This document shows positions 10,096 to 15,224 of a DNA stretch of 46,419 nt, piece by piece. The notes under the pieces were generated by a model. That model was not told where the DNA came from, did no database searches, and saw only the letters and a list, made by a program, of their open reading frames with translations. Location: contig PKUA01000039.1 of NCBI GenBank assembly GCA_002868905.1, positions 570-46,988 of the forward strand, written 5' to 3'. Position numbers and translations under genes: made by a program. The first letter of the stretch is position 1, and each line of letters starts with the position of its first letter. Origin of the DNA: Desulfuromonas sp. (lineage in GTDB: Bacteria; Desulfobacterota; Desulfuromonadia; Desulfuromonadales; Geothermobacteraceae).

Positions 10096-10227
10096 CCTGC
10101 AAACTTTTATGACGTTTCCCGGGACTTGGCCGTGTTTTAGGAGATTGCCGGTTGACATGCCGTTTCTGCTCGGGGACAATCGGCAGGTTCTCATTGTTTG
10201 CAACATATTTGAAAGGAGTATATCTTG

Positions 10228-10911
10228 ATGAAGAAGTCGATGGCCATATTGGCCGTACTGTTGTTGTTCGTGTCGACCGCCGCCCCGGCTGCCGATTTCA
10301 AGAGTGACAAAGAGAAGAAAAGCTACGCAATAGGGATGAAAATCGGCAACGATTTCAAGAGCCAGGGGCTTGATATCTCCCCTGAGGTGTTGGTACAGGG
10401 TATCACGGATACGCTTGCCGAAAACAACATGCGCTTGTCGGATGATGAAGCGCGCCAGGTCATCACGGCCCTGCAGCAAGAGATCATGCAACGCCGGCAG
10501 CAGCAGTCGCAGGAGCTGGCCGGAAAAAACCTGGAGGAGGCTGAGGCGTTCCTGGAAAAAAACAAGAAGGCCAAAGGGGTCAAGCAGACGGAAAGCGGCC
10601 TGCAGTATATTGTCCTGCAAGAGGGCAAAGGGAAAATGCCCAAGGCGACTGACAAGGTCAAGGTCCATTACACGGGAACTCTGTTGAACGGCGAAAAGTT
10701 CGACAGCAGTTACGACCGGGGCGAACCTGCGACTTTCGGGGTCAACGCCGTGATCAAGGGGTGGACCGAAGCGCTGCAGTTGATGAAAGAGGGTGGAAAG
10801 CTGAAGATCTTCATCCCTCCTTCCATCGGTTACGGCGAGCGGGGTGCCGGGGCGCGCATTCCGCCTAATTCGGCTCTGGTTTTCGAAGTGGAACTTCTCG
10901 AAGTTCTGTAA
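10228..10911 (+). CDS. FKBP-type peptidyl-prolyl isomerase (FklB/Mip-like), exported
   Basis: AAAGGAG lies about 9 bases before ATG 10228 (a TTG directly before it is also in frame). The 227-residue protein starts with a signal peptide ending near APAAD. A helical dimerisation domain follows (FKSDKEKKSYAIGMKIG, then EEAEAFLEKNKK). The FKBP domain comes last (VHYTGTLLNGEKFDSSYDRG, GYGERGAGARIPPNS, FEVELLEVL). All hydrophobic active-site positions of the FKBP family appear conserved. Predicted role is proline isomerisation and chaperoning of secreted proteins in the periplasm. Confidence 0.92.
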   Translation: MKKSMAILAVLLLFVSTAAPAADFKSDKEKKSYAIGMKIGNDFKSQGLDISPEVLVQGITDTLAENNMRLSDDEARQVITALQQEIMQRRQQQSQELAGKNLEEAEAFLEKNKKAKGVKQTESGLQYIVLQEGKGKMPKATDKVKVHYTGTLLNGEKFDSSYDRGEPATFGVNAVIKGWTEALQLMKEGGKLKIFIPPSIGYGERGAGARIPPNSALVFEVELLEVL

Positions 10912-10921
10912 GTGCCACACC

Positions 10922-10952
10922 AAGGGCCATCCGCTGGATGGCCCTTGTCTTT
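10922..10952 (+). terminator. Intrinsic terminator after the FKBP gene
   Basis: Perfect 11-base arms AAGGGCCATCC and GGATGGCCCTT around the loop GCT, then GTCTTTT. It also argues that the next gene starts after it, not at the ATG inside the right arm. Confidence 0.8.
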
Positions 10953-10964
10953 TGGGAGGACCCG

Positions 10965-11570
10965 GTGCTGCAACCAGAAGCGGAAAATGTACTTGATTTT
11001 TGGTTCGCCGACCTCGGAAGCAAGGGGCAGGTGACCGCCGACTGTTCACGGCTCTGGTTTGGAAAAGACGAAGCGGTCGACCGGGAACTGGCCGACCGCT
11101 TCGGCCATACCGTTGAGGCAGTCGGAACGGGGGATCTCGACGCCTGGGCTGCCACAGCACTCGGGAGGCTTGCCCTGGTTCTGGTTTGTGATCAATTGCC
11201 GCGTAACATCTACCGTGACATGCCTAGAGCCTTCGCGTTTGATTCGCGTGCCCTGCGGTTGGCCAAGGCGGGGATTGAGCGGGGGGAAGACTTATCGCTC
11301 GGTATCGCGCAGAGAGCTTTTTTTTATCTCCCGTTCGAGCATGCGGAGGACATGGCGATGCAGGATCTCTCAGTTAAACTGTTTGCAAAACTGAAGGAGG
11401 ACGGAGGGGACATTCATGAAAAGGCGACCGCCAGTTTCCTCGATTATGCCGAGCAGCATCGTGTCATTATCGCCCGGTTCGGGCGATTCCCCCATCGCAA
11501 TCGGATTCTCGGCAGGGATTCGACCCCGGAAGAGGTGGACTTTCTGCGGCAGCCCGGATCGTCATTTTAA
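10965..11570 (+). CDS. DUF924 family protein
   Basis: An ATG at 10938 lies inside the terminator stem, so GTG 10965 is chosen; GGGAGGA ends four bases before it and the product starts MLQPEAENVLDFWFADLG, the usual DUF924 opening. The 201-residue protein has the family marks WFGKDEAVDREL, LVCDQLPRNIYRD, FYLPFEHAED and a C-terminal RFGRFPHRNRILGR. The family is alpha-helical, TPR-like and of unknown function. It is cytoplasmic and converges on nikR. Confidence 0.85.
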   Translation: MLQPEAENVLDFWFADLGSKGQVTADCSRLWFGKDEAVDRELADRFGHTVEAVGTGDLDAWAATALGRLALVLVCDQLPRNIYRDMPRAFAFDSRALRLAKAGIERGEDLSLGIAQRAFFYLPFEHAEDMAMQDLSVKLFAKLKEDGGDIHEKATASFLDYAEQHRVIIARFGRFPHRNRILGRDSTPEEVDFLRQPGSSF

Positions 11571-11670: not shown

Positions 11671-12090
11671 TTAGCGAAGGTCGGTGCCGGGAAGAGTTGT
11701 GACCAGCTTGCCGTGCTTGACTCCCTTGGTGCCGATCAGTTCATCGGCCAATCGCCTCACCTTACTCGCTTTCCCGCGAACGACAACAACTTCAAGGCAG
11801 TGGTGGTGGTCGAGATGGACGTGCAGGGTCGAAACAATGGCGTCGTGGTGGCTGTGCTGGTGTTCGGTGAGTTTGTCTGAGAGGTCCCTGGTGTGGTGGT
11901 CGTAAACCAGTGTGATGGTGCCGACTGCTTCAACGTCACCCTGCCTCTCCCGTTCTTCGACCAGGGCCGCCCGGATCAGGTCACGTATCGCCTCTGAACG
12001 ATTGCCATACCCTTTCTGCCCACTCAGCCGGTCAAACTGTTCCAGCAGATCCTGGTCTATCGATATTCCAAAACGGGTCAATTCGGCCAT
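11671..12090 (-). CDS. nikR: Nickel-responsive regulator NikR
   Basis: Start at 12090: CAGGAGG stands nine bases before this ATG, and the two upstream in-frame ATGs lack a proper spacing. The 139-residue protein has an N-terminal ribbon-helix-helix domain ([19 protein letters not shown], then [12 protein letters not shown]). The C-terminal ACT-like metal domain contains [21 protein letters not shown] in two overlapping parts. The pattern His, HxH and Cys needed for the square-planar nickel site is present, plus extra His residues. No nickel transporter or hydrogenase gene is nearby. It is divergent from nrdD; I see no obvious NikR dyad (GTATGA-type) in the spacer. Confidence 0.9.
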
Positions 12091-12210
12091 AGTGACCATC
12101 CTCCTGTGCATTGAGGACTTGGTAGCACACCCCCGGAAGAGGGTCAAGGATTTAGGGTGTTTAGCCCTCTTTCATCACAATCAGTCCACAGGCTGTCCAC
12201 TTCGATTCAA

Positions 12211-12290: not shown

Positions 12291-12329
12291 CGGTTAGTCT
12301 GCGGTCAATGTTCGCCAGGAGGGTTGATG

Positions 12330-14318
12330 ATGCTGAATTCCATTCGTAAGCGGGACGGTCGGATTGCTTCTTTCGAAGAGGAGAAAATCGTTGAAGCTAT
12401 CGCCAAGGCGGTGCAGGCGGTCGGGGGGGACGACTTTGAAAGACCGAGACAGATCACCCGCCAGGTTGTCGGCATCCTCGAGGTCATCTACAAAGATGGC
12501 CGTATTCCGACCGTGGAGAACGTTCAGGACCTGGTTGAAAAATGCCTGATCGAGAACGGTCACGCACGGGTCGCCAAGAACTACATCCTCTACCGCCAGC
12601 AACACGCCGCCCTGCGCCAAACCAGGCAGTTCATGAAGGAGTCGATCGAGGCGATCGATTCCTACCTCACCCAGGAAGACTGGCGCGTCAATGAAAACGC
12701 CAATATGGGGTATTCCCTGCAGGGGCTCAATAATCATATTGCCGCAAATATCACCAGCAACTACTGGTTGAACAAAATCTATCCCGAAGCGGTCGCCGAC
12801 CCGCATCGCAATGGCGATTACCATATTCATGACCTCGGTATGCTGTCGGTCTACTGCTGCGGTTGGGACCTGAAGGATCTCCTGCTTAAAGGGTTCACCG
12901 GCGCTTACGGCAAGGTTCAGAGCGGTCCGGCCAGGCATCTCCGTACGGCGTTGGGTCAGGCGGTCAATTTCTTCTATACCTTGCAGGGCGAGGCTGCGGG
13001 CGCACAGGCCTTCGCCAGTTTCGATACTCTGCTCGCTCCGTTTATTCGTTACGACGGGCTCTCTTACCCCGCCGTCAAGCAGGCGATGCAGGAGTTCATT
13101 TTCAACATGAACGTGCCGACTCGCGTCGGTTTTCAGACTCCTTTTACCAATATCACCATGGACCTGACGCCTCCCTCTGGAATCGCGAAGGAGGGGGTGA
13201 TTATCGGCGGTTGCGTGCAGCAGGAGACCTACGGTGACTTCCAGGACGAGATGGACATGTTCAACCGCGCGTTCTGCGAGGTGATGATGGAAGGGGATTC
13301 GTCCGGTCGGATATTTTCTTTTCCGATTCCGACTTACAACATCACCCGTGAACTCGACTGGGAAGGGGAGAGGTTGAAACCGGTCTGGGAGATGACCGCC
13401 AAGTACGGTATCCCCTATTTCTCCAATTTCATCAATTCCGATATGGATCCGGAGGACGCCCGCTCCATGTGCTGCCGACTGAGGCTCGACAACCGGGAAC
13501 TCCGCAGGCGCGGCGGCGGGCTGTTCGGCTCGAACCCGTTGACCGGCTCAATCGGCGTTGTCACTATTAATCTGCCCCGTGCTGCTTTCCAGGCCGAGGG
13601 GATGGATCAGTTTTTTTCGCAGATTGACAATTTAATGCAACTTGCCTGCGAGTCGCTGGAGATCAAGCGGAAACAGTTGGAGCGGTTTACCGATGACGGC
13701 CTCTACCCATTCAGTAAATTTTATCTGGAGGGAATCCGGCATCGGACCGGAAGTTACTGGACCAATCATTTCTCGACCGTCGGTCTACTCGGCATGAATG
13801 AAGCGGCGCTGAACCTGATCGGAGAGTCGATCGACACCGAGAGGGGACGCACCTTTGCCGAGGAGACTCTCTCCTTCATGCGAGAGCGCCTTGAACAATA
13901 CCAGGACGAGACGGGTCATCTCTATAACCTCGAGGCGACTCCGGCCGAGGGAACCAGCTACCGGTTGGCACGCCTCGACACTGAAAGGTTTGCCGACATT
14001 GTGACCGCCGGGGCAGATCAGCCATATTACACCAACTCGAGCCAGCTGCCGGTCGGTTGTACCGAGGACATCTTCCAGGCGCTTCAGCATCAGGACCGGT
14101 TACAGACACTCTATACCGGCGGAACCGTGTTTCATGGTTTTCTCGGTGAACGCCTGGAGGATTGGCGGGGCGCTCGCTTGTTGGTGAAGCGGATTGCCGA
14201 AAATTTCCACCTGCCGTATTTCACGATCAGTCCGACGTTTACCATATGCCCGGTCCACGGTTATGTGTCGGGAGAGCATTTCTCCTGTCCGCACATGCAG
14301 ACCGGGGCAGCGGCTTGA
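12330..14318 (+). CDS. nrdD: Anaerobic ribonucleoside-triphosphate reductase, large part lacking the glycyl-radical motif
   Basis: ATG 12330 lies seven bases after AGGAGG (ATG 12327 and TTG 12324 are alternatives). The 662-residue product has an N-terminal ATP-cone (IRKRDGRIASFEEEKI to about residue 95). The ten-stranded barrel follows, with GGCVQQETYGDFQDEMD, SMCCRLRLDNRELRRRGG and TGSIGVVTINLPRA. It ends FTICPVHGYVSGEHFSCP and eight further residues. Normal NrdD continues through a zinc ribbon into a C-terminal RVxGY glycyl-radical loop; here TGA stops the frame inside the ribbon. The missing piece is the separate gene at 14373. Alone, this chain could not form the radical. The next gene but one encodes the activase. 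Confidence 0.93.
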   Translation: MLNSIRKRDGRIASFEEEKIVEAIAKAVQAVGGDDFERPRQITRQVVGILEVIYKDGRIPTVENVQDLVEKCLIENGHARVAKNYILYRQQHAALRQTRQFMKESIEAIDSYLTQEDWRVNENANMGYSLQGLNNHIAANITSNYWLNKIYPEAVADPHRNGDYHIHDLGMLSVYCCGWDLKDLLLKGFTGAYGKVQSGPARHLRTALGQAVNFFYTLQGEAAGAQAFASFDTLLAPFIRYDGLSYPAVKQAMQEFIFNMNVPTRVGFQTPFTNITMDLTPPSGIAKEGVIIGGCVQQETYGDFQDEMDMFNRAFCEVMMEGDSSGRIFSFPIPTYNITRELDWEGERLKPVWEMTAKYGIPYFSNFINSDMDPEDARSMCCRLRLDNRELRRRGGGLFGSNPLTGSIGVVTINLPRAAFQAEGMDQFFSQIDNLMQLACESLEIKRKQLERFTDDGLYPFSKFYLEGIRHRTGSYWTNHFSTVGLLGMNEAALNLIGESIDTERGRTFAEETLSFMRERLEQYQDETGHLYNLEATPAEGTSYRLARLDTERFADIVTAGADQPYYTNSSQLPVGCTEDIFQALQHQDRLQTLYTGGTVFHGFLGERLEDWRGARLLVKRIAENFHLPYFTISPTFTICPVHGYVSGEHFSCPHMQTGAAA

Positions 14319-14372
14319 TGGATTGAATGGTATCGAACTTAGCAAGCAGTTCATTGAATAAAGGAGCATGTC

Positions 14373-14516
14373 ATGGCGAGCAAATGTGATGCGAAAACGG
14401 AGGTTTACTCAAGGGTTTGCGGTTTTTTTCGCCCGGTCCAGCAGTGGAACAAGGGAAAAAAGGAAGAGTTCAAGGACCGCTGCGAGTACCTGGTAACGAA
14501 AAACAAAGACAACTGA
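14373..14516 (+). CDS. Stand-alone glycyl-radical domain of NrdD
   Basis: A 47-residue gene, 54 bp after nrdD, with its own AGGAG six bases before the ATG. The product contains KTEVYSRVCGFFRPVQQWNK, which is the C-terminal signature of class III ribonucleotide reductase; the Gly of RVCGF (residue 17) is the predicted radical site. Cys5 in ASKCDAK probably completes the zinc ribbon whose first Cys pairs lie at the end of the large chain. Several in-frame stops separate the two genes, so simple readthrough does not join them. This implies a two-chain NrdD whose radical is carried by a small subunit, similar in idea to the spare-part protein GrcA/YfiD for pyruvate formate-lyase. Confidence 0.85.
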   Translation: MASKCDAKTEVYSRVCGFFRPVQQWNKGKKEEFKDRCEYLVTKNKDN

Positions 14517-14531
14517 CTAGATATCTCGCCG

Positions 14532-15224
14532 GTGCCTATCAAAGGTTTCCAGGGGACGAGTCTGCTTGACTACCCGGGGAGTATCGCTTCACTGATCTTC
14601 TGGGGTGGTTGTAACCTCGCCTGTCCGTTCTGCCATAATCCTGCCCTGGTGGTTGACCAGGAACAGCTCCCTGATTACCCGGTTGATGTGTTGCTGGCAG
14701 ACTTGCACTCCCGCCGCTCTTTTGTCGACGGTGTCGTAGTCAGCGGCGGGGAGCCGACTCTTGACCCGGACCTTCCCGGCATCCTTCGTTCCATCAAAGA
14801 ATTAGGCCTGCTGGTGAAGCTTGACACGAACGGTCTCCGTCCAGACGTCCTGGAAGATCTCCTGGCCGAGAAATTGCTCGATTATGTCGCGCTCGACCTC
14901 AAGACTTCCCCGGCTCGTTATGATGAGCTCGGCGCCAGAGGTGGTGGGGAGAATTTGAAGCAGAGTATCGAGTTGCTGCTTCACGCCCCTATGGATTACG
15001 AGTTCCGCACAACCTGCGCACCGGGATTGGTTGGTGCTGAAGAGTTGAGCGAGTTGGGGAGATATGTTTCAGGTGGAAGGATTTGGGTTTTGCAGCAGTT
15101 CCAGCCCGGACCTTCTCTCGATCCTCGTTGGCGGGAAAAAGACCCGTACCCGGTTGAAACGATCCGTGGTTTTGGCGACTTGATTCAGCCCTATGTTGAA
15201 GAAGTCGTATTGCGGGGGATATAG
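14532..15224 (+). CDS. nrdG: Anaerobic ribonucleotide reductase activating radical SAM protein
   Basis: GTG 14532 starts 15 bases after the radical-domain gene and gives MPIKGFQGTSLLDYPG, the normal opening of this family. The radical SAM motif CNLACPFC (Cys at about residues 28, 32 and 35) binds a [4Fe-4S] cluster; GGEP (near 74) is the SAM-binding motif. The 230-residue length fits the NrdG-like branch, which is longer than E. coli NrdG. Predicted role: make the glycyl radical on the 47-residue partner under anoxia. The three genes should form one operon under the NrdR-box promoter. The Shine-Dalgarno is weak, so translation may be coupled to the upstream gene. Confidence 0.9.
   Translation: MPIKGFQGTSLLDYPGSIASLIFWGGCNLACPFCHNPALVVDQEQLPDYPVDVLLADLHSRRSFVDGVVVSGGEPTLDPDLPGILRSIKELGLLVKLDTNGLRPDVLEDLLAEKLLDYVALDLKTSPARYDELGARGGGENLKQSIELLLHAPMDYEFRTTCAPGLVGAEELSELGRYVSGGRIWVLQQFQPGPSLDPRWREKDPYPVETIRGFGDLIQPYVEEVVLRGI

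Follow-up and report, generated by a model that had tools for sequence, protein, structure and literature searches.

The class III ribonucleotide reductase encoded in the DNA analysed here is very probably an obligate two-chain enzyme, in which the glycyl radical resides on a small chain of 47 residues rather than on the large NrdD chain. The window, by which we mean the whole stretch of 46,419 nucleotides that was analysed, belongs to a 3.3-Mb genome (99.98% complete) of a Desulfuromonadales relative of Geothermobacter; Geothermobacter hydrogeniphilus HR-1 (G004) is a relative of the same family, and loci L003 and L054 are identical over 4891 bp. The gene is genuinely split, and the split is not an error. 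Its existence and conservation, the small gene's own translation signals, the purifying selection on that gene and the occurrence of free-standing phage copies are established at the level of sequence; for the two-chain enzyme itself there are no biochemical or expression data. A two-chain NrdD with the radical on a small subunit had been proposed in a preliminary description of this stretch, and the proposal gains support from the order-wide occurrence of the split and from the small gene's translation signals.

The features of the locus are collected in the table. The coding part of the large frame (12330-14315) ends with ICPVHGYVSGEHFSCPHMQTGAAA and is followed by TGA (14316-14318); the small gene begins MASKCDAKTEVYSRVCGFFRPVQQWN and contains KCDAKTEVYSRVCGFFRPVQQWN. 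The preliminary description held that the NrdD frame ends within the zinc ribbon without a radical loop, that a 47-codon gene with its own Shine-Dalgarno sequence lies 54 bp downstream and an activase gene 15 bp beyond that, and that several in-frame stops separate the parts. All of this was borne out, the activase starting with GTG at 14532 and the stops being three (TGA, TAG and TGA). Along the 562 positions of the PF13597 profile, the large chain covers 1-526 (598.9 bits) and the small chain 526-562 (41.3 bits; cut-off 26.2). Two properties of a class III NrdD, an NRDD domain and an adjoining NrdG-type activase (TIGR02495, NrdG2), are thus present; the third, a radical domain on the same chain, is not, and a second gene supplies that domain.

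Table. Features of the split nrdD locus, in window positions
Feature	Position	Strand	Basis
Shine-Dalgarno of nrdD large chain, AGGAGGG	12317-12323	+	sequence; anti-SD duplex energy
nrdD large chain, 662 aa: ATP-cone, NRDD barrel and first part of zinc ribbon, without glycyl-radical loop	12330-14318	+	PF03477, PF13597
Zinc-ribbon portion kept on large chain: C640 ... H643/H649 ... C653 (read-through numbering)	14247-14288	+	aligned with fused homologues
Conserved C-terminal -Ala-Ala of large chain and TGA stop	14310-14318	+	81/89 junctions end AA
Gap of 54 bp; in-frame TAG 14340-14342 and TGA 14355-14357	14319-14372	+	sequence
Shine-Dalgarno of small gene, AAGGAG	14361-14366	+	sequence; SD-like core in 89/89 junctions
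Small chain, 47 aa: glycyl-radical domain	14373-14516	+	PF13597 match, junction comparison
Small-chain Cys5, proposed fourth zinc ligand	14385-14387	+	
Small-chain Gly17, presumed radical site	14421-14423	+	
nrdG2-type radical-SAM activase, 230 aa, GTG start	14532-15224	+	TIGR02495, 186.6 bits (cut-off 131.15)

Upstream of nrdD are genes for a NikR-like nickel regulator (11671-12147, minus strand), a DUF924 protein (10938-11570) and an FKBP-type isomerase (10225-10911). A scan with the NrdR box consensus gave a best site near nrdD with three mismatches; the window contains four such sites against 0.98 expected, and 4 of 100 shuffles reach four.

An assembly error or a decaying gene could in principle leave such an arrangement, but nothing beyond the stops themselves favours this explanation, and we consider it practically negligible. 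The glycyl-radical domain was matched in 116 of 136 genomes of the order, and in 115 of the 116 the best match is in a frame that measures 46-432 codons from stop to stop and could not accommodate NrdD; single-contig genomes also have the short stand-alone frame. The exception (G048) has its sole radical-domain match in a fused frame of 837 codons. The small gene is moreover under purifying selection, with a mean pN/pS of 0.11 over 33 codons (pS is near saturation at 0.84) and, among the 45 closest pairs, a pN of 0.053 against a pS of 0.413. NrdD itself was matched in 53 of 58 genomes, the window's included: 46 have one open frame of 659-882 codons in which the query is matched to residue 656-662, and 7 have NrdD in pieces. 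Conservation of the split among relatives had been named in advance as a check, and fused genes in close relatives with only this assembly split as a refutation; relatives across the order proved to be split, with a start codon and SD-like core of the small gene's own. Two NrdD frames of 1072 and 1033 codons (L220; G051:C2:96998-99979) have an in-frame insert of ~315-325 residues, perhaps inteins.

A class I/II-type reductase (PF02867) is found in 57 of the 58 genomes; among 21 genomes chosen for a short-frame match, 20 have one (both sets include the window genome). The exception is an 83%-complete genome (G055). NrdD is therefore not shown to be essential, and we rejected the argument that a sole reductase of the cell must be functional.

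The junctions between the two parts could be read in 116 of 130 loci (L002-L131), the others having no readable pair; these comprise 99 distinct junctions, 89 of them of the Desulfuromonadales type, and the counts are not fully independent owing to relatedness. Over the 89, the gap ranges from 11 to 290 bp with a median of 54, the start codon of the small gene is ATG in 86 cases and GTG in 3, and an SD-like core is present upstream of it every time, whereas after shuffling of these stretches such a core is present in 35%. The large chain ends in -Ala-Ala at 81 junctions, encoded by at least 12 different codon pairs, and one of the eight exceptions (L082) is a masked stretch. Because this end is conserved with varied codon pairs, the large chains seem really to terminate there. 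The end (window 14310-14315; L266) resembles the genome's own tmRNA tag, ADTDVRYALAA; the idea that it marks unpaired large chains for degradation is no more than a guess.

These junctions bear on whether the two parts are joined during translation, either through readthrough of the stop codons or through ribosome hopping across the gap, as in T4 gene 60. A single fused protein of this kind would be compatible with the window, where both parts share a frame. That shared frame is uninformative, however, since all three relative frames occur over the 89 junctions (32, 17 and 40). The three frames, together with gaps of such varied length, effectively rule out readthrough or hopping, to which we assign only the slightest weight; every small gene comes with a start codon and SD-like core of its own, as many as five in-frame stops intervene even where the frame is shared, and phages carry the small gene as an orphan.

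How the two chains might be held together is suggested by the zinc ribbon, which in a fused relative (L127) reads CPTHGYIAGEHFTCPECNKETEVYSRV. Split large chains retain the ribbon up to the third ligand Cys, and the pattern used in searching for large chains required its first part. In all 89 small chains, a Cys occupies the missing zinc-ligand position five residues before the Glu of EVYSRV, which is the spacing seen in fused homologues such as L127. Because the large chain keeps the ribbon to the third Cys and the small chain has a Cys at the fused spacing, we propose one zinc site common to both chains that would hold the small chain in place. However, 71 of 87 large-chain tails have a His two residues past the third ligand Cys, 77 have a His somewhere and 7 a Cys, and with these residues the large chain might need no partner to complete the site. 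On account of the tail His count, our initial mild preference for the shared site has been reduced to an even balance. The T. maritima zinc motif, CxxxHx6CxxC in the available part of PMC4493059, does not map letter for letter onto the large chain, for which the zinc-ligand His candidates are H643, H649 or the tail His.

Structural prediction does not settle the matter. AlphaFold gave an NrdD fold for the read-through frame, and residues 126-704 of the model were superimposed by VIA-align on residues 26-587 of T4 NrdD with a Z score of 32.4; at the end of this alignment, model Gly698 falls within about one residue of T4 Gly580, assuming no gap between. Over most of the small-chain part, pLDDT is below 50 in both predictions, also with the small chains well aligned, and for this reason the shared zinc site remains an inference. 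A structural alignment that reaches the loop is weak support only, resting as it does on low-confidence model residues.

Several known systems share elements of this organization. Class III NrdD (PF13597, TIGR02487) has the same ATP-cone, barrel, SMCCR finger-loop motif, zinc ribbon, RVxG loop and neighbouring activase, whereas in the split enzyme a distinct chain of 47 residues bears the loop together with the ribbon's last Cys. The SMCCR motif is that of the NrdDh group, which includes T. maritima, according to the portion of PMC4493059 that was accessible. The split class II reductase NrdJa/NrdJb, as described in those sections of PMC9669993 and PMC4860495 available to us, likewise has its C-terminal zinc-finger part on a second chain, but is a cobalamin enzyme without a glycyl radical; the class I/II barrel family PF02867 is not among the large-chain matches at E up to 1, where PF13597 is. 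Phage nrdA and nrdD genes may be spread over several frames by introns, inteins or homing endonucleases (PMC3653736, available in part), whereas the present cut is at a domain border and conserved over an order; no intron or homing endonuclease was found in the 54-bp gap, and the gaps of relatives span 11-290 bp.

A further analogy is with GrcA/YfiD and T4 Y06I, which serve as spare parts for pyruvate formate-lyase, Y06I being phage-borne (PMC8683613, seen as an incomplete text). These too are small stand-alone glycyl-radical proteins that serve a large barrel without a loop of its own, and it could be argued from this similar logic that our small chain is a spare part that repairs a complete NrdD made elsewhere. 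We find this very unlikely. The window genome has a single NrdD match, which is without the loop, and no further NRDD match was found in that genome, so that an intact second NrdD was rejected; in the 136 genomes of the order there are just two fused matches at E up to 0.001, one on a plasmid (G041) and the other in G048. Hence the small chain does not, as GrcA does, provide a second copy of a radical domain that an intact enzyme of the cell already has. The small chain matches NRDD alone, with no match to a PFL-type radical-domain family (PF13597 is the only family found at E up to 1). The comparison with GrcA/YfiD drawn in the preliminary description thus holds in part: the stand-alone radical protein is there, but it is the genome's only copy of the domain, so that it alone can supply the loop and is no spare accompanying an intact NrdD. 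By analogy, the system would work as an NrdD with its radical domain cut off, following a logic like that of YfiD and Y06I. The plasmid-bearing genome is Geoalkalibacter subterraneus Red1, which has a split NrdD on the chromosome (L013), a fused NrdD on plasmid pGSUB1 (L048/L275; L048 is identical to the plasmid over 3601 bp) and an orphan small chain adjoining a GemA homologue (L160).

Small chains of the same kind are already visible to annotation, because RefSeq labels several of them "nrdD, anaerobic ribonucleoside-triphosphate reductase" (about 58-69 aa; e.g., WP_011154154.1 and WP_152090978.1). Most adjoin a separate large chain and an activase. They differ from ours in being cut after the zinc ribbon (type E, below), and the name comes from annotation without a described function. 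No description of a split NrdD or of the small proteins was found in open-licence PubMed Central papers, a search that leaves most subscription journals outside its scope.

The split is not confined to the Desulfuromonadales. The 80 best loci from named genomes form a set selected for its best matches; split pairs make up 73 of them, another 2 are fused, and for the other 5 the stretch shows no large chain. Members of the Lentisphaerota, Goldiibacteriota and FCPU426 share the cut position of the Desulfuromonadales, and other Thermodesulfobacteriota and Proteobacteria show different cuts. In type C (families f51 and f86) the small chain has no Cys at the zinc position; in type D (f36) there is a possible coiled-coil helix on both halves; and in type E (EVWTRVMGY) the cut follows a complete zinc ribbon. 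Types C-E are without the zinc layout of the Desulfuromonadales. In three type D loci (L136, L149 and L150), a charged, heptad-like helix ends the large chain and another starts the small one, as though the halves were held together by a coiled coil. Of 20 short-frame hits fetched from outside the order, 14 have the small gene adjoining a domain-less large chain and 6 are without a large chain.

For the 68 barrel sequences placed on a tree (44 split and 24 fused; the radical domain was excluded, and L140 was left out as too short), at least five changes of the split/fused label are required, two of which are forced by the starred branches. NrdD therefore appears to have been split more than once, although this is a quick tree with moderate branch support and does not distinguish gain from loss. 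Type E is found in the Pseudomonadota (Cupriavidus necator H16, C. metallidurans CH34, Paracoccus denitrificans, P. ferrooxidans, Cereibacter azotoformans, Azospira and Bradyrhizobium diazoefficiens) and in Sulfuricurvum kujiense (Campylobacterota); NrdD is fused in Acidiphilium and on the Geoalkalibacter plasmid. In C. necator H16 the type E split is located on pHG1, with a small gene of 66 codons. The nrdD and nrdG genes of pHG1 are reportedly needed for anaerobic growth, a result attributed to Siedow et al. (1999, J. Bacteriol.). On an Allochromatium vinosum plasmid, an orphan small gene named nrdD (L279, 3486-3695) adjoins a CHAP-domain gene, and no large chain was found within 3.5 kb.

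Small genes also occur on their own. In 11 of the 136 genomes of the order there is a second small gene without NrdD in the fetched stretch (L152-L162), and at 8 of the 11 loci a GemA or Gam homologue is present, as in Mu-like prophages (the queries were confirmed by Pfam or PHROG, and self hits were excluded). One locus (L153) has the same sequence as a viral contig of IMG/VR; another (L158/L124) has an integrase, of phage type in L158, and an endolysin-like gene beside the small gene; for L152, a phage origin is not clear. Relatives of the small chain are encoded by 100 stretches in IMG/VR, of which 80 were kept and fetched with up to 5 kb on each side. NrdD is absent from the fetched stretch in 77 of these and fused in 3. 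All 77 orphans keep R-x-x-G-[FY], with a stop interrupting the frame in two (L167 and L168). GemA or Gam adjoins the small gene in just 14 of the 77, so that a Mu-like nature is not established for the majority of these phages. Two contigs carry two separate small genes each (IMGVR_UViG_3300028857_000016, with L174 and L209; 3300038312_000391, with L196 and L203), and the 80 loci are therefore on 78 contigs.

Whole records, which may be fragments, were searched for 50 of the 80 viral loci. NrdD is present in four, comprising the three fused cases and G564, and an activase in three, all among these four. The remaining 46 have neither and thus carry the radical part alone. In record G564 (187 kb; L226, L268), NrdD is loop-less; an activase follows after about 5 kb, and the small gene is at a distance of about 70 kb. 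The archaeal virus ANMV-1 has a stand-alone version of 144 residues that is annotated as a reductase. When eight small peptides were compared with PHROGs, six matched the full-length NrdD family phrog_487, two also matched phrog_29963 (192 positions, unknown function) and phrog_4218, and two were unmatched; no dedicated short family was seen there.

Whether the small chain can be exchanged is a separate question from whether the enzyme has two chains. The chains could instead form a permanent complex, the split being a neutral accident kept by drift, with the small chain neither exchanged nor used in repair. Consistent with this, the order large-small-activase is kept close, an activase-like frame being within about 400 bp of the small gene at 36 of 46 split loci, and there is no sign of excess small chain, because its Shine-Dalgarno is no stronger than that of the large chain (stronger in 15 of 42, weaker in 25 of 42, by anti-SD duplex energy). 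A permanent complex does not readily accommodate the small genes located away from nrdD in the 11 genomes of the order, mostly beside GemA or Gam, the 46 viral records without NrdD, or the two tandem small genes that stand behind one large chain in Lentisphaeria (L121 3498-3827; L123 3498-3829). We regard it as possible but somewhat doubtful. Since phages carry the small piece alone and tandem copies occur, the piece looks exchangeable and is suggested to work in trans; these facts do not show repair after oxygen. The exchangeable radical carrier of the preliminary description accordingly has indirect support only, from orphan prophage and phage copies and from tandem duplicates, and we are evenly divided on whether exchange takes place in the cell. 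Tentatively, and with a little less confidence still, we suggest that the radical subunit is interchangeable and that Mu-like and other phages bring only this part, plugging it into the host's large chain and activase and so renewing or taking over nucleotide reduction during infection.

Taking the two-chain enzyme as the preferred interpretation, a mechanism can be outlined. ATP-cone and substrate barrel would belong to the 662-residue chain, as would the zinc ribbon up to the cut; the 47-residue chain would supply the Cys at the fourth ligand position, along with the glycine on which the radical forms. The small chain is inferred to dock on the large one, perhaps via the shared zinc site, so that its RVCGF loop would enter the barrel where the loop of a fused NrdD sits. 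NrdG2 would then act on the small chain to generate the glycyl radical, and a small chain that has been cleaved could be replaced with no need to make the large one again.

If this is correct, the glycyl radical, normally an integral part of a large enzyme, can be carried by a subunit of 47 residues, which would provide a minimal and easily mutated radical carrier for a reaction essential to DNA synthesis. Spare parts have been validated for pyruvate formate-lyase only, as far as the available part of PMC8683613 extends, and the split NrdD would offer a natural test of whether the swapping of a small part rescues radical enzymes after oxygen. An implication of phages that carry the radical part alone would be a new way of using a host enzyme.
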